49,591 bases of DNA from Kofleriaceae bacterium (GCA_018058095.1 JAGPCO010000040.1:5445-55035); one strand, 5' to 3'; numbered from the stretch's first letter, positions 8,402-19,587 are shown. Translations and numbers: made by a program. The notes: generated by a model not told the origin, from the letters alone.

Positions 8402-8719
8402 ATGGTCAGCCCCGTCGAGATCATCGGCCTCGGTCAGGCCCAGGTCCGCTTCGTGTGGGACGACGACACCGAGGTGACCTGGCCGACCCGGACCCTGCGC
8501 CTGCGCTGCACCTGCGCCCTGTGCGTGTCGGAGCACTCCGGCTTGCCCCTGCTCGACCCGACGACGGTGCCGGCCGACATCACGATCAAGGACATGAGCC
8601 TGGTCGGCAACTACGGCGTCGGCGTGGTGTTCTCCGACGGCCACTCGACCGGCATCTACCGCATCCGCGAGCTGGTCAAGGGTCCCGACGGTGCCGGCTC
8701 GACGCCGGTGGCGTCGTGA
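8402..8719 (+). CDS. DUF971 family protein (GBBH-like N-terminal domain)
   Basis: A 105-aa single-domain protein. The sequence VEIIGLGQAQVRFVWDDD, then RTLRLRCTCALCVSEHSG, then a GNYGVGVVFSDGHSTGIYR core matches the DUF971 pattern, also found at the N-terminus of gamma-butyrobetaine hydroxylases and beside iron-sulfur carrier proteins. CTCALC holds the Cys residues of the possible metal site. The start is ATG 8402; an in-frame GTG at 8384 overlaps the palindromic promoter region. Its stop overlaps the nitroreductase GTG by 4 nt, so the two are co-translated. The exact biochemical role of stand-alone DUF971 proteins is not settled. Confidence 0.88.
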   Translation: MVSPVEIIGLGQAQVRFVWDDDTEVTWPTRTLRLRCTCALCVSEHSGLPLLDPTTVPADITIKDMSLVGNYGVGVVFSDGHSTGIYRIRELVKGPDGAGSTPVAS

Positions 8720-9402
8720 CCTCGCTGCCCGACCTGCACGCCGTCCTGGCCCGGCGCCACAGCGTGCGCGGCTTTGCGCCGACGCCGGTGCCGGCGCCGA
8801 CGCTGGAGGCGATCTTCGCGGCGGCGCAGCAGGCGCCGTCGTGGTGCAACGTCCAGCCGTGGCGGGTCACCGTGACCAACCCGCCGCGCACCGCCGCGCT
8901 GGCGCAGGCCATGCAGCAGGCGGCCCGGACCAGCCTGCCCCACCCCGACGTCGCCTTCCCGATGACCTACCCCGAGCCGTATGACGCCCACCGCAAGGTG
9001 TGTGGCGGGGCGCTGTACCGGGCCATGGGCGTGGCCCGCGACGACAAGGCCGGCCGCTACGACGCCTGGCTGCGCAACTACGCCTTCTTCGACGCGCCGC
9101 ACCTGGCGGTGGTGGCGTGTGACCGCCGGCTCGGGCCGTACGCCTTCGTCGACGTCGGCGTCTGGCTCGGCCTCCTCCTGGCGGCGGCGACCGCGGCCGG
9201 GGTGGCCACCTGCGCCATGGCCTCGGTCGCGGCCTACCCCGACGTGCTGCGGGCCGAGCTCGCGCTGCCGGCCGACGAGACCATCCTGCTCGGGGTCGCG
9301 CTCGGGTACGCCGACGACCAGATCGCCGCCAACACGGCCCGGACCGACCGCTCACCGCTCGGCGCCAACGTCCGCTTCGTGCCGGCGGCGGAGGGCGGGT
9401 GA
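8716..9402 (+). CDS. Nitroreductase family protein
   Basis: A 228-aa predicted FMN-dependent oxidoreductase. The N-terminal LARRHSVRGFAPTPVPAPTL and the following AAQQAPSWCNVQPWRV are the usual nitroreductase FMN-binding signature, and the C-terminal half has the family helix DVGVWLGLLLAAATAAGVATC and LGVALGYAD. The electron acceptor cannot be told from sequence. The GTG start overlaps the DUF971 stop as GTGA, and a lectin-like lipoprotein gene follows after 3 nt, so the three genes probably form one transcript. Confidence 0.9.
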   Translation: MTSLPDLHAVLARRHSVRGFAPTPVPAPTLEAIFAAAQQAPSWCNVQPWRVTVTNPPRTAALAQAMQQAARTSLPHPDVAFPMTYPEPYDAHRKVCGGALYRAMGVARDDKAGRYDAWLRNYAFFDAPHLAVVACDRRLGPYAFVDVGVWLGLLLAAATAAGVATCAMASVAAYPDVLRAELALPADETILLGVALGYADDQIAANTARTDRSPLGANVRFVPAAEGG

Positions 9403-9405
9403 GGC

Positions 9406-9942
9406 ATGGCCCGGGTCGACCTGCACCTGCTCGGCGCCGTGCTGCTCGCCTCGTGTGGCCGGATCGACTTCGCGCCCGCGACGCAGGCGGTCGCCGACGC
9501 CGCGCCGGCGCCGGTCGATGGCCCGCCGTGCCCGGCCACCTTCACGCCGAGCGGCGGCAGCTGCTACCTGGTGGTGGCCAACACGCCGGTGGCCGGCACC
9601 TGGCAGGAGCTCGAGGCGCGGTGTGAGGCGAGCGAGCCGGGCGCCCACCTGGCGGTGATCGAGGACGAGGCCGAGCTCGACCACCTGATCGCGATCATCC
9701 GCACCGCGGGCATGGCCGACGCGGTGGTCGGGTTCTCCGACCTGGTGACGGAGGGCACGTTCCTCACGGTGGTCGGCTCGCCCGCCTTCCTGCGCTGGGC
9801 CCCGGGCGACCCCGACGGGGACGACTGCGGCGCCATCCAGGCCACCCCGGGGACGGAGGGGACCGAGGACACCGTGTGCACGGGCCTCGACGACTACGTG
9901 TGCGAGGCCGACGGTCGGGCCGTCGACCCATCGGCGTTCTGA
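9406..9942 (+). CDS. Lipoprotein with a C-type-lectin-like domain
   Basis: A 178-aa surface lipoprotein. The signal peptide ends LLASC, and right after the Cys comes GRIDFAP, a motif shared by three other lipoproteins in this window. An Ala/Pro/Asp linker leads to a C-type-lectin-like fold: the opening CPATFTPSGGSCYLV, the helix WQELEARCEASEPGAHLAVI, then the RWAPGDPDGDDC core and a final Cys pair. The calcium-binding EPN/QPD triplet is not obvious, so sugar binding is unproven. It is the third gene after DUF971 and nitroreductase. Confidence 0.85.
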   Translation: MARVDLHLLGAVLLASCGRIDFAPATQAVADAAPAPVDGPPCPATFTPSGGSCYLVVANTPVAGTWQELEARCEASEPGAHLAVIEDEAELDHLIAIIRTAGMADAVVGFSDLVTEGTFLTVVGSPAFLRWAPGDPDGDDCGAIQATPGTEGTEDTVCTGLDDYVCEADGRAVDPSAF

Positions 9943-10011: not shown

Positions 10012-11499
10012 ATGAACCTACGACGAAGACTCGTGATTTCGGCCACGCTCGTGCTGGTGATGGGGCTGGTGACGGCGTTGGCGCGACCCGCCTTCGCCGC
10101 CGATGACGGCGCCCTGGTCGCAGCACAAGCAGCGTTCGACCGGGCCCAGGACGACTACGTGGCCAAGCGTTATGACGAGGCCGCCGCCGGCTTCCTCAAG
10201 GCGTACGAGTCGCGCCCGTTCCCGCAGTTCCTCTACAACAGCGCCGCCGCCTTCCACATGAAGGGCAAGGCCGGCGCCGACGTCGCCGCCTACGAGAAGG
10301 CGGTCGAGGGCTACAAGCGCTACCTCCAGGCCGACCCGGCCGCGAGCGACAAGGCCAAGGTCGAGAAGGCCATCACCGTCCTCGAGGCCGAGATCAAGCG
10401 GCTCAAGGCGGCGCCGGTCGTGCCGCCCGGGACGGCGCCCAACCCGGCCACCACCGCACCGTCGCAGGAGGTGCAGAACCTCGGCGACGTCAAGGTGCGC
10501 GGCCTCCTGGTCATCGAGAGCGAGCCGACCGGGGCGACCATCTATCTCGACGACAAGAGCAAGGGCAAGTTCGGCACGACGCCGTGGAGCGGTCAGCTCG
10601 AAGGCGAGCACCTCGTCATCGTCGAGAAGGAGGGCTACAAGGCGGCCGACTCCAAGATCGCCGCCAACCCCGATCGCCTGACCGTGCTCAAGCTCGACAT
10701 GTCGGAGGCCAGCTTCTTCGGCCGCGTCGAGATCACCTCCAACGTGCCGGGCGCCGAGGTCTACGCCGACGATCGCACCGTCGGCGCCATCGGCAAGACC
10801 CCGCTCAAGACCGAGTTCAAGCCGGGCAAGCACAAGATCTGGGTCACGGCCGAGGGCTACGACGAGGTCGAGAAGGAGCTCGACGTCATCGCCGGCGAGA
10901 CGGCCGAGGTGGCGGTCACGCTCAAGGGCGGCCCGGTCGGCTACGTCTACGTGCGCGGCCAGGACATCGAGCAGAGCTCGATCTGGGCCGACGGCGAGCT
11001 GCTGTGCGAGCGCGGCCCGTGCCGCAAGGCGCTGCGCGAAGGCTGGCACCGCGTCACGGTCAGCCGCGACGGCTACAAGTCGTACACCCGCCGGATCGAG
11101 GTCCAGGCCAAGACCGAGACCTCGATCAAGGTCAGCCTGGCCAAGAAGCCGAGCCGGAGCGACGCCATCGCCGCCTACGCGCTGTCGGCGGTGTTCCTCG
11201 GCGGCGGCGCCTACGCCGGCCTGCAGAGCAACAAGCTGCGCGACGAGCTCGACGCCGACATCATGGCCGGCACCCCGCCGGTCGACAGCGAGGACCCGCG
11301 CTTCCTGCGCGGCAAGATCTACGCCTGGGTCGCCGACGGCGCGTTCGTGCTCGGCGGGGTGACCGCGCTGACCGCGATCTACTACACGTTCCGCGACAAG
11401 GGCCTGCCGTCGACCGCCATCCTCGATGTCGGCGCGGTCGGGTTCAGCCCGCAGGTCGGCCCGACGTACGCGGGCCTCGGCATGGAGGTGAGCTGGTGA
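10012..11499 (+). CDS. PEGA-domain exported protein with TPR-like N-terminus
   Basis: A 495-aa predicted envelope protein. A signal peptide (residues 1-27, ending RPAFA/ADD) is followed by a helical, TPR-like segment (about 30-125: AAQAAFDRAQDDYVAKRYDEAA). Three PEGA repeats follow: VIESEPTGATIYLDD, EITSNVPGAEVYADD and a diverged third with WADGELLCERGPC. A hydrophobic stretch (AYALSAVFLGGGAYAGL) and a second one (VADGAFVLGGVTALTAIYY) near the C-terminus suggest membrane anchoring. PEGA domains are extracytoplasmic and common in Myxococcota next to Ser/Thr kinases, as here. The stop shares one base with the next ATG. Ligand unknown. Confidence 0.85.
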   Translation: MNLRRRLVISATLVLVMGLVTALARPAFAADDGALVAAQAAFDRAQDDYVAKRYDEAAAGFLKAYESRPFPQFLYNSAAAFHMKGKAGADVAAYEKAVEGYKRYLQADPAASDKAKVEKAITVLEAEIKRLKAAPVVPPGTAPNPATTAPSQEVQNLGDVKVRGLLVIESEPTGATIYLDDKSKGKFGTTPWSGQLEGEHLVIVEKEGYKAADSKIAANPDRLTVLKLDMSEASFFGRVEITSNVPGAEVYADDRTVGAIGKTPLKTEFKPGKHKIWVTAEGYDEVEKELDVIAGETAEVAVTLKGGPVGYVYVRGQDIEQSSIWADGELLCERGPCRKALREGWHRVTVSRDGYKSYTRRIEVQAKTETSIKVSLAKKPSRSDAIAAYALSAVFLGGGAYAGLQSNKLRDELDADIMAGTPPVDSEDPRFLRGKIYAWVADGAFVLGGVTALTAIYYTFRDKGLPSTAILDVGAVGFSPQVGPTYAGLGMEVSW

Positions 11500-12788
11500 T
11501 GCGCACGATCGGCTTCCGTCTCACCGTTCCCGCCCTGGCCTGCGTCGGCCTCGGCTCCGGCTGCCTGTGGAGCAAGTTCGACGAGCTGCAGGACGACACC
11601 TGGGTCGAGGCGGTCGGAGCGCCCGACAGCGTCGCGTCCGGTCGCTGGGGCGAGAGCTTCGTCGAGGGTATCGCCGGCTCGGCCGCCGACGGCACCACCA
11701 TCACCGTGCTGGCCCGCAACGGGGCGGCCCTGGCCAGCCTGCGCTACGACGCCGCCGGCAAGCGCACGGTCGTCCCGACCACCCAGCCCATCAGCGACCT
11801 CGCCGTGTTCGAGACCAACTTCGCCGAGCAGCAGCTGATGATCGGCAGCGCGACCACCTCGGAGGTGGCGCTGGTGGTGGTGACCGCGGCCGACAACGAC
11901 CCGCGCGCCAACACCAAGGTCATCGTCGTCGACGCCGCCACCGGCGCGCTGTCGGGCGGGCCGTACGAGCCGCCGCAGGCGCCCAACACGCTGTTCGGCG
12001 GCAAGGTCTCGCACGGCCTGGCCTTCGGCGCGTCCGACGCCGAGATGTGGATCGCCCGGACCGACCAGGTGCTCCGGCTCGATCGCGCCGGCGCCGGCAC
12101 CTTCCTCGGCTGCTCGCTGCAGGGCGAAGAGGCGTTCGCCATCAGCTTCGGCGACGTCACCGGCGACGCCGTGGCCGACATCGTCGTCGCCAGCGCGCCC
12201 AACGTCGACCTGTCGGTGCCCGAGAACGGCCGGGTCTGGCTGCTCGACCCGGCCACGGTGACCGGCGACGGCACCCAGCCGGCCCTGCCGATGTGCGGCG
12301 TGCTGGGCGAGCTGACCGGCGCCCTGCCGATGGGCCCCGGCTCCCGCCTGCTGCTGGCCGACCTCGGGGCCGGGCCACGCCTGGTGTTGTCGACGCTGGG
12401 CGAGGCCGGCAAGGTGTCGATCCTCAACTTCGCCAGCGGCGCGCCCCTCATCGAGGCGGCCTACCCGGTGCCGGACCTCGGCTCGCTCACGATCGGCAAC
12501 GTCGACGACTCGACGCTGCCGCCCGAGCTCATCGTCGGCATCCCCAACATCGCCGCCGGCGGGGTGTCGGGCGCTGGCCAGGTCAAGGTGCTGTCGCCGG
12601 CCGGGGCCGAGCTGCTCACGCTCAGCGACGCCACGCCCGAGACCGGCGCCAAGTACGGCAAGTCGGTGGCGGCGGTCCCGTTCGGCGCCAACCGCACCAT
12701 CCTCGTCGTCGGCGACGAGGGCGAGGCGTCGGAGGCGTTCGTGTACTTCCGCACTACCCTGTACGACGACGTTCGGACCGGGCGCTGA
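11499..12788 (+). CDS. Lipoprotein with FG-GAP/VCBS-like beta-propeller
   Basis: A 429-aa exported protein. The N-terminal signal sequence ends GLGSGC, a lipobox, followed by LWSKFDELQDD. The body has repeated blade-like segments with integrin-style acidic loops, for example SFGDVTGDAVADIVVAS, and TIGNVDDSTLPPELIVG, as in FG-GAP/VCBS propellers that bind calcium or protein partners. It starts on the last base of the PEGA gene stop (TGATG) and ends 15 nt before the kinase gene, so PEGA protein, propeller and kinase are likely co-expressed. No enzymatic motif. Confidence 0.82.
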   Translation: MRTIGFRLTVPALACVGLGSGCLWSKFDELQDDTWVEAVGAPDSVASGRWGESFVEGIAGSAADGTTITVLARNGAALASLRYDAAGKRTVVPTTQPISDLAVFETNFAEQQLMIGSATTSEVALVVVTAADNDPRANTKVIVVDAATGALSGGPYEPPQAPNTLFGGKVSHGLAFGASDAEMWIARTDQVLRLDRAGAGTFLGCSLQGEEAFAISFGDVTGDAVADIVVASAPNVDLSVPENGRVWLLDPATVTGDGTQPALPMCGVLGELTGALPMGPGSRLLLADLGAGPRLVLSTLGEAGKVSILNFASGAPLIEAAYPVPDLGSLTIGNVDDSTLPPELIVGIPNIAAGGVSGAGQVKVLSPAGAELLTLSDATPETGAKYGKSVAAVPFGANRTILVVGDEGEASEAFVYFRTTLYDDVRTGR

Positions 12789-12803
12789 CCGATCGGGTGC
12801 CGG

Positions 12804-14810
12804 GTGGCGTTCCACACGTGCCCGACGTGCAAGCGGGTGTTCGAGGTCGCCGGCTACTGCCCGTATGACGGGCAGACGCTGACCCTCGTCACCGACAGCA
12901 CGCCGACGGTGGCGTCGGTCGCGATGCCGGCGGTCGAGCAGCCGGTGACGCTGGCCTCGGCGATCATGCCGGCCCAGGTCCAGCTGCAGACCTTCCGCTC
13001 GCACTCGGCCCACACCAACACCGACTCGGCGCTGTCGGCGATGCGCGCGCACGAGAGCGAGTACGACCGGATGATCGGGCAGACCCTCGACGGCCGGTAC
13101 CACATCGACCGCAAGCTGGGCGAGGGCGGCATGGGCGTGGTGTTCGCGGCCCGGCACGCGGTGATCGAGCGGCCGCTGGCCATCAAGGTGCTCAAGCGCG
13201 AAGTGATGCGCGAGGCCGCGACCATCAAGCGCTTCGTGCAGGAGGCCAAGGCGGCCTCGCGTATCGGCCACCCCAACATCGTCGACGTGACCGACTTCGG
13301 CACGACCGCGGATGGCCTGACCTACCAGGTCATGGAGCTGATCGACGGCGTCACGCTCGGCCACGCGCTGCGCGTCGGCGGCGTGATGCCAGCGACCCGG
13401 GTCATCCGCATCATCGCCCAGATGGCGCGGGCGCTCGGCGCGGCCCACACCAAGGGTATCGTCCACCGCGATCTCAAGCCCGACAACGTCTTCCTGCTCG
13501 AGCGCGACGGCCGGCACGACTTCGTCAAGATCGTCGACTTCGGCATCGCCAAGGTGATCCCGGTCGGCGGCGAGCGCGGCGACGGGCCCAAGCTGACCCG
13601 GGCCGGCTCGGTGTTCGGCACGCCCGAGTACATGGCGCCGGAGCAGGCGTCGGGCCGGGGCGACGTCGATGGCCGGGCCGACATCTACGCCCTCGGCACC
13701 ATCGCCTACGAGCTGCTGACCGGCCGGGTCCCGCACCGGGGCGACTCGGTGGTGCGGACGCTGGCCATGCAGATGCTCGATCCAGTCGAGCCGCCGAGCC
13801 GGGTCCGACCCGATCTGACCATCCCGCCCGCGCTCGAGCAGGTGGTCATGCGCGCGCTGGCCAAGAAGCCGGCCGAGCGCTACCAGACGATGGCCGAGCT
13901 GGTCGTCGCGCTCGAGGCGGCCAGCGGCGGATCGCTGGCCGAGCCAGTCAGCACCGCGGCGGCGCAGGCCTATCAGCTGCCGGCCCTGCCACCCGGCGCC
14001 AGCGCCGAGGCCGACGGCACCCCGACCCAGGTCGACCGGACCCGGCGCGACTCCGGCCCCGATCCGAGCGCGCCCCCCACCGTCAACGACGGCCCGCTCA
14101 CCACCCCGGGCGGCCGACGCCGACCGGAGTCGACCCAGCGCCGCTACGTCGACGAGCCGGCCTTCGTCAGCAACCCGTCGGCGTCGGCGTTCGAACACCT
14201 GCTGGCGCGAGACAGCCAGCAGGACCTTCCGGAGCCGACGCCGGGTCGACGCGGCCGCGGCCGGATGCTCGTCCTGGTCGTGCTGGTCCTGGCCGCCGGC
14301 GCCGGCGGCGCGGCCTTCGCGCTGTGGGGGCAGGGTCGCGGCGGCGACGGCGACCAGGCCGCCATGCCGGCCGACGCGGCGATGATCGCGGTCCGCGTGA
14401 GCGACGCCGCGCCGGCGAAGGTGCCGACCGCCGAGCTCGCCGACGCCGCCGTGGTGGCGCGTGGCCCGGTCGACGCCCGCGTCGGGGCGGGCCACGGGCG
14501 GCAAGCCGACGCGGCGGAGGTGGTGACCGGCCCGCCGGTGACGGTCAAGGTGCTGACCGAGCCGGCGCGGTCCACTGTGTACCTGGGGCGGACGTTCCGC
14601 GGCTCGGGCGGCGTGACCATGCAGGAGCCGCGTGGAACCCAGGCCCAGGTCCGGTGCAGCGCCGAGGGGCACGTCGATGGCACGGTCGCCGTGACCTGGG
14701 ATCACGACAAGACCGTGACCTGCCGCATGCGCCGACGCAGCAAGTGCGTCGACGGCCTGCACAACCCGTTCGACGACTGCCCCGACGCCGGCCCGGTGTC
14801 GAGCCCGTGA
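12804..14810 (+). CDS. Transmembrane Ser/Thr protein kinase with zinc-ribbon and PEGA-like ends
   Basis: A 668-aa Hanks-type kinase. Residues 1-25 hold a zinc-ribbon-like CPTCKRVFEVAGYCPYDG. The kinase domain spans about 99-372: glycine loop LGEGGMGVVF, Lys128 in LAIKVLK, HRDLKPDN (catalytic Asp 223), DFGIAK (245-250), and GTPEYMAPEQ. All catalytic residues are present. A Pro/Thr-rich linker precedes one transmembrane helix (about 488-508), and the extracytoplasmic end has a PEGA-like segment (LTEPARSTVYLGRTFRGSG) and four cysteines. The start is GTG, 15 nt after the lipoprotein gene. The outside PEGA part could sense the co-encoded PEGA or propeller proteins. Confidence 0.93.
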   Translation: MAFHTCPTCKRVFEVAGYCPYDGQTLTLVTDSTPTVASVAMPAVEQPVTLASAIMPAQVQLQTFRSHSAHTNTDSALSAMRAHESEYDRMIGQTLDGRYHIDRKLGEGGMGVVFAARHAVIERPLAIKVLKREVMREAATIKRFVQEAKAASRIGHPNIVDVTDFGTTADGLTYQVMELIDGVTLGHALRVGGVMPATRVIRIIAQMARALGAAHTKGIVHRDLKPDNVFLLERDGRHDFVKIVDFGIAKVIPVGGERGDGPKLTRAGSVFGTPEYMAPEQASGRGDVDGRADIYALGTIAYELLTGRVPHRGDSVVRTLAMQMLDPVEPPSRVRPDLTIPPALEQVVMRALAKKPAERYQTMAELVVALEAASGGSLAEPVSTAAAQAYQLPALPPGASAEADGTPTQVDRTRRDSGPDPSAPPTVNDGPLTTPGGRRRPESTQRRYVDEPAFVSNPSASAFEHLLARDSQQDLPEPTPGRRGRGRMLVLVVLVLAAGAGGAAFALWGQGRGGDGDQAAMPADAAMIAVRVSDAAPAKVPTAELADAAVVARGPVDARVGAGHGRQADAAEVVTGPPVTVKVLTEPARSTVYLGRTFRGSGGVTMQEPRGTQAQVRCSAEGHVDGTVAVTWDHDKTVTCRMRRRSKCVDGLHNPFDDCPDAGPVSSP

Positions 14811-16080: not shown

Positions 16081-16198
16081 CTTCGTCTCCAACCACGTTC
16101 ACGCCGGTCACCGCCGCGGTGCGATAGCCCGGGCCAGCGCCGAACCGGGCGCGTGATCTGTGGCAGCATGAAGGTCGGAAGCCGGGTCGCGCCCCTTC

Positions 16199-19587
<3,389 letters not shown>

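Follow-up and report, generated by a model that had tools for sequence, protein, structure and literature searches.

Myxobacteria have very large sets of Ser/Thr kinases, and to our knowledge inputs are known for few of them. Can the genes that neighbour such a kinase reveal what it responds to? The question is raised by a 49,591-nucleotide stretch of DNA from a Kofleriaceae bacterium (hereafter the window), which sits on G000:C212, one of the 227 contigs of a 7.57 Mb genome. A PEGA-domain protein, an FG-GAP-like lipoprotein and a Ser/Thr kinase are encoded in it one after the other, and a first-pass annotation, made from the sequence alone, had read the three genes as a self-contained envelope-sensing unit. 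The features of the locus, numbered from the first nucleotide of the window, are the following.

10012-11499, + strand: gene 1, an open reading frame for a TPR protein with three PEGA domains, 495 residues.
10093-10410, + strand: TPR-like helical region of gene 1 (residues 28-133), with pLDDT of about 90 and Foldseek matches to TPR proteins.
10501-10698, 10720-10926 and 10972-11148, + strand: the three PEGA domains (PF08308), found by a six-frame PF08308 scan at G000:C212:15945-16142, 16164-16370 and 16416-16592 in contig numbering.
11155-11391, + strand: two long helices of gene 1 (residues 382-418 and 429-460), a probable membrane pair in the model.
11499-12788, + strand: gene 2, FG-GAP-like lipoprotein, 429 residues.
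11562-11564, + strand: lipobox cysteine of gene 2 (Cys22).
12804-14810, + strand: gene 3, Hanks-type Ser/Thr kinase with a GTG start, 668 residues.
12819-12872, + strand: N-terminal ribbon of the kinase (residues 6-23, CPTC...CPYD), with three cysteines and one aspartate.
13098-13889, + strand: kinase domain, with VAIK-type Lys128, HRD Asp223 and DFG Asp245.
14268-14324, + strand: single transmembrane helix of the kinase (residues 489-507), its sole strongly hydrophobic segment.
14541-14789, + strand: PEGA-like ectodomain of the kinase, ending in C-x-x-G-x-x-N-P-F-x-x-C.

The stop codon of gene 1 and the start codon of gene 2 overlap by 1 nt, and genes 2 and 3 are separated by 15 nt. This spacing, the strand and the gene calls of the first-pass annotation were confirmed on the sequence. 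The claimed operon is real and conserved; because the same genes recur in the same order in relatives, the arrangement is not due to chance. No sigma-70 promoter or terminator pattern was found, a result that is uninformative at 73% G+C. A role in anti-phage defence was considered and rejected, as the PADLOC matches are generic kinase-domain matches only.

The gene 1 product comprises a signal peptide, TPR-like helices, three PEGA domains, two long helices and a C-terminal beta hairpin (AlphaFold model, mean pLDDT 76). The three PEGA repeats claimed for this gene are borne out by Pfam, in which PF08308 matches three stretches with 126.4 bits against a cut-off of 20.8. The only two cysteines of the protein, C332 and C337, fall in the third PEGA domain and are invariant in 16 relatives. 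The nearest relatives are encoded in MAG records labelled 'Kofleriaceae bacterium', 'Myxococcales bacterium' and 'Deltaproteobacteria bacterium'. The protein had been described as exported. Judging from the two C-terminal helices of the model, the hydropathy of which is borderline, it is more likely to be anchored in the membrane than merely exported. In the alignment, the helices and the D-x-R..GK loop between them are conserved throughout the class. The loop was considered as a kinase docking site or phosphosite, an idea weakened by its conservation in families lacking the kinase.

The gene 2 product scores just below the FG-GAP cut-off (PF01839, 21.5 against 22.1 bits), while 25 of its 37 relatives match FG-GAP, the best at 1.9e-20; it is therefore named FG-GAP-like rather than assigned to the Pfam family. 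The profile of the gene 2 family matches integrin alpha chains with an E-value of 5e-20. The protein is modelled as a beta propeller (pLDDT 85.7, pTM 0.86), for which Foldseek gives integrin alpha-5 as the best match (E 2e-10). These results agree with the FG-GAP-like propeller that had been proposed. Integrin-alpha propellers share with the protein the predicted fold, detectable sequence similarity and, in many relatives from other genera and families, DxDxDG loops. In contrast to integrin alpha, gene 2 encodes a stand-alone, predicted bacterial lipoprotein. DxDxDG Ca2+ loops, apparently lost in most of the window's genus, are missing both from this protein and from every other aligned protein of the genus.

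The position of the lipobox is conserved. The sequence in the window, LGSGC, is non-canonical; relatives feature canonical LGAC, LAAC or VGAC at the same place, and a C-x-W-x-x-F-D-D-L start is common after it. Lysine at position +2 of a lipoprotein is an inner-membrane signal (PMC3222651). Many gene 2 relatives have this lysine, and the window's protein has leucine. Identity to the window's lipoprotein ranges from 19 to 34% in the class; the PEGA protein reaches 54-63% within the family and the kinase 43-54% within the order. By these values, obtained at different sampling depths, the propeller lipoprotein appears to be the fastest-changing part of the trio. A scan of the genome contigs for the lipoprotein only, by short peptide patterns, gave no match, as the sequence is too divergent for such patterns.

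The Pkinase domain of gene 3 (Pfam, 155 bits) spans residues 99-362. Lys128, Asp223 and Asp245 are invariant in 23 orthologues, as expected of a Hanks-type kinase, and from its intact active site the protein is predicted to be catalytically complete. All seven cysteines, three in the ribbon and four in the ectodomain, are invariant or nearly so. In the ribbon, C6, C9 and C19 are invariant and D22 is nearly so in 18 relatives; in the ectodomain, C618, C640, C648 and C659 are all invariant in the orthologues. The zinc-ribbon-like N-terminus of the first-pass annotation is present, but with three cysteines and an aspartate instead of four cysteines. The protein also contains an Asp/Ala/Pro-rich linker. 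Its single transmembrane helix and intact catalytic residues support the claim of a single-pass membrane kinase, in which the kinase domain would lie inside and the PEGA-like end outside. The products of genes 1 and 2 are predicted to be proteins of the cell envelope, as had been proposed. Against PF08308 (cut-off 20.8), the tail scores 17.8 in the protein scan and 22.1 in the six-frame scan, and 4 of the 23 orthologues match PEGA at the tail (E 0.01). The ectodomain is weakly similar to the PEGA domains of gene 1 (hhalign probability 22%), and its derivation from them finds no support past this similarity.

With a PknB-type cytoplasmic core, one transmembrane helix and a small extracytoplasmic domain, the protein resembles PASTA-type kinases such as PknB and StkP. 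It scores 310 bits against NCBIfam NF033483, the cut-off of which is 450, and hence lies outside this group; no PASTA domain was matched in the kinase by the Pfam scan. It further differs from PknB and StkP in the PEGA-like four-cysteine ectodomain, the extra N-terminal ribbon and the operon partner genes. It is also similar to the PEGA-tailed Ser/Thr kinases of Myxococcota. The genome contains about 150 kinase matches. Of the 149 listed, 17 or more are followed on the same strand, within 1.3 kb and mostly in frame, by a PEGA match. The PEGA tail, which had been taken as an unusual trait, is consequently not one. The ribbon profile matches six places in the genome, three of which are kinases, an undercount since the profile is short; the ribbon is a minority feature, as had been supposed, but it is not unique. 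What distinguishes the gene 3 product from other PEGA-tailed kinases is its membership of a separate clade, a C-terminal cysteine motif restricted to the order, and its association with the PEGA and FG-GAP genes. As the parts of the kinase are unremarkable for this genome, the neighbourhood is the interesting feature.

The window belongs to the order holding the Kofleriaceae, which includes families f1, f2, f3 and f4. Within the family, 20 of 30 genomes are matched by the lipoprotein query, and all of the 19 loci fetched feature a PEGA gene followed by an FG-GAP gene. In the order, a gene 1 relative is found with the PEGA profile in 32 of 35 genomes, and the kinase follows in 25 of the 27 loci at which this place is readable, distributed among f1, f2 and f4. 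The co-occurrence in relatives on which the first-pass annotation depended is thus observed. Only two loci depart from it: G016, a small genome, carries the PEGA gene alone, with no FG-GAP or kinase gene next to it, and in G032 (f3) the PEGA and FG-GAP pair is followed by a gene on the opposite strand. In f1 and f2 the three genes are found in the same order, with gaps mostly near zero. In f4 the kinase follows the PEGA gene directly (gaps of 21 and 37 nt), no FG-GAP gene lies between them, and FG-GAP matches elsewhere in the genome are weak and partial. The operon kinases of the order form one clade in the tree (100/100 support), and a single landing therefore accounts for all of them; by this phylogeny, the kinase joined the pair once in this order.

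A single landing would also suffice if synteny did not reflect a shared pathway, and the kinase, once inserted in the ancestor of the order, had simply stayed by inertia. The GBBH-like_N and nitroreductase genes found upstream in f1 and f2, which are apparently metabolic, are conserved almost as well as the trio. Tight synteny in these families is therefore no proof of shared function, as apparently unrelated genes can persist; moreover, the abundance of kinases in the genome makes chance neighbours frequent. However, the f4 loci maintain the tight PEGA and kinase arrangement in the absence of both the FG-GAP gene and the two upstream genes, a different kinase has joined the pair in f8 (see below), and G021, a 99% complete genome, has none of the three, be it PEGA, FG-GAP or the kinase ectodomain. 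On balance, persistence by inertia seems to us rather improbable.

The same loci bear on the strictest form of the original proposal, a three-gene sensor in which the PEGA protein and the lipoprotein are both dedicated to this kinase. Essentially all Kofleriaceae-type loci (f1 and f2) conform to it, in gene order as in spacing. Nonetheless, f4 manages without FG-GAP, and the partnership with the kinase is younger than the pair itself, which elsewhere is followed by another gene or by no third gene; we regard such exclusive dedication as very improbable.

By profile search, 98 of the 192 genomes sampled from the class contain a gene 1 relative; among 282 genomes sampled from the phylum, none was found outside the class. 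In the readable loci, which represent about 17 families, FG-GAP follows PEGA on the same strand with just three exceptions. The conserved core is the PEGA and FG-GAP pair, and it is class-wide in this class of Myxococcota. The distribution of the kinase across the class was judged by a profile of its ectodomain, matches of which are confined to the window's own order and one marginal place. Outside the order, the pair mostly lacks an adjacent kinase and often has an NtrC-type gene behind it, which, along with the f4 loci, speaks against a self-contained trio.

In f8, f12, f13, f14, f15, f16, f25 and f28, the third gene encodes an NtrC-type sigma-54 response regulator, at a distance from the FG-GAP gene that is mostly short (about -16 to +124 nt). 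REC, sigma54 AAA+ and Fis-type HTH domains are present in all 13 aligned members, which are 62-78% identical to the first. These genes form one orthologous group, the tree of which broadly follows the PEGA tree; a different NtrC-type gene occupies the third place in f19. The orthologue is near-universal, being found in 160 of 192 genomes of the class. In the window's order and in f7 it is located elsewhere in the genome, usually behind a histidine kinase, and hence does not need the pair. That the gene of the window's order might be a different paralogue was ruled out, as it belongs to the same orthologous group. Neither the kinase nor NtrC was seen behind the pair in f7, f10, f11, f17 and f23, the contigs of f10 ending early; in f7 an MgtE-like gene usually takes the third place, and in one f17 locus a PhaC-like gene does. 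The NtrC-linked loci are distributed over both deep sides of the PEGA tree. For this reason, linkage to NtrC is probably the ancestral condition and linkage to the kinase a derived one, although the association of NtrC with the pair may be recurrent instead.

Both kinase and NtrC are found beside the pair in f8. The kinase gene is directly upstream of the PEGA, FG-GAP and NtrC genes, and its product features a ribbon, a kinase domain, a transmembrane segment, an Asp/Ala-rich linker and a PEGA-like end; a third f8 locus (L089) shows the tail of the upstream kinase. Orthology to the operon kinase was rejected, since in the tree the f8 protein falls outside the operon-kinase clade. Kinases of this architecture have therefore joined the pair at least twice.

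We tentatively favour, at slightly short of an even chance, the view that the TPR-PEGA protein and the propeller lipoprotein form a receptor pair of the envelope, the cytoplasmic output of which, a kinase or a sigma-54 activator, can be exchanged. The view draws on analogy with the E. coli QseE-QseG-QseF system, in which the lipoprotein QseG binds the periplasmic part of the kinase and stimulates it (PMC6075780). This system illustrates that such a mechanism is feasible where a lipoprotein gene shares an operon with the genes of a membrane kinase and of an NtrC-type regulator. In both cases the gene of an envelope lipoprotein lies beside that of a membrane kinase in one operon, and an NtrC-type sigma-54 activator, an output like QseF, is linked to the pair in the eight families listed above. 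QseE, however, is a histidine kinase, whereas the kinase described here is of the Hanks type and is found in one order only, that of f8 being a different one. The E. coli operon, moreover, consists of three genes and includes no TPR-PEGA protein. The likeness is drawn as an analogy of layout.

Under the receptor hypothesis, the pair would read the state of the envelope or a ligand, and hand the signal to the output encoded beside it. The propeller, as the fastest-changing component, would face the ligand or the envelope state, and the PEGA protein would keep it close to the membrane. The PEGA-like ectodomain of the kinase would be engaged in the periplasm by the PEGA protein, the propeller or both, which would alter kinase dimerisation and activity. 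In families without the operon kinase, another transmembrane partner would read the pair, and in many of them the linked output would be the NtrC-type response regulator. Physical contact, the direction of signalling and a shared function are what we infer to lie behind the conserved neighbourhood. A broader formulation, that receptor and output are separable across two signalling chemistries, with a class-wide pair serving a probably ancestral sigma-54 regulator, a Hanks-type kinase in the window's order and both in f8, is possible, but we hold it with somewhat less confidence.

The opposite direction was also considered. The pair may be the effector, made up of envelope structural or assembly factors (for instance, a TPR/PEGA scaffold and a lipoprotein client), the production or activity of which is regulated by the kinase or NtrC. 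The occurrence of the pair with neither output behind it in f7, f11, f17 and f23 would indicate a job of its own. TPR helices and tandem PEGA beta-sandwiches are scaffold-like, fold matches of gene 1 also include pilin, usher and S-layer proteins (Foldseek), and the inter-helix loop is conserved with or without a kinase. In contrast, a purely cytoplasmic regulator needs no ectodomain, and that of the kinase is conserved and has four invariant cysteines; furthermore, the lipoprotein evolves far faster than PEGA and kinase, as is more typical of a ligand-facing part, with the reservation that the sampling depths differ. We therefore consider an effector role unlikely, though it is, with persistence by inertia, one of the two main rivals of the receptor hypothesis.

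Each part of the locus is of a known kind; the combination, the class-wide core and the proposed exchange of outputs were not found in a literature search that covered few subscription papers. A review credits a 2008 study of the myxobacterial kinome with the observation of conserved neighbourhoods around kinase genes in general (PMC8538405). The neighbourhood described here provides a specific receptor candidate for one kinase. For the PEGA domain, the same search, likewise covering few subscription papers, yielded no function, which a clean genetic system would supply. As the same pair is tied to a sigma-54 regulator elsewhere, the locus also raises the question of whether the output of an envelope receptor can be switched from transcription to phosphorylation.

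Nearly all loci from families f1 and f2 have kept two genes upstream of the operon, which runs on the forward strand from gene 1 (a TPR and triple-PEGA protein) through gene 2 (an FG-GAP-like lipoprotein) to gene 3 (a Hanks-type kinase). The relevant features of the window are as follows.

8402-9402, GBBH-like_N domain gene and nitroreductase gene, conserved upstream of the operon
9406-9942, small C-type-lectin-like gene (PF00059)
11437-11490, forward strand, C-terminal strand of gene 1, also in relatives, final Trp/Phe

The C-type-lectin-like gene separates gene 1 from the conserved nitroreductase gene, and none was found at that site in the relatives examined. In genus g6 (L030-L034, L042 and L043), an extra PEGA gene is located upstream of the operon; it shares about 46-50% identity with gene 1. 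Throughout the class, gene 1 products end in a strand whose last residue is Trp or Phe (GLGMEVSW, ..RF), resembling an outer-membrane beta-signal, though the protein has no barrel.

Behind the PEGA and FG-GAP gene pair, the third gene in many other families is the NtrC orthologue, a sigma-54 response regulator. The following loci from related genomes are relevant here (locus-internal coordinates).

L180, 5992-9810, NtrC orthologue neighbourhood in the order that includes Kofleriaceae; also L181-L190
L119, 5450-6799, non-orthologous NtrC-type gene, family f19, at the site behind the FG-GAP gene

In most loci of the former set (L180-L190), the partner gene of the NtrC orthologue encodes a large histidine kinase with multiple transmembrane segments, and a conserved gene follows the orthologue, whose product looks FadL/OmpP1-like, as judged from its sequence. 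In family f7, the pair is followed by an MgtE-like magnesium transporter gene, assigned as such in L110 and, by membership of the same sequence cluster, in L109, L114 and L134. The f19 gene, which falls outside the NtrC orthologue group, may represent an independent recruitment.
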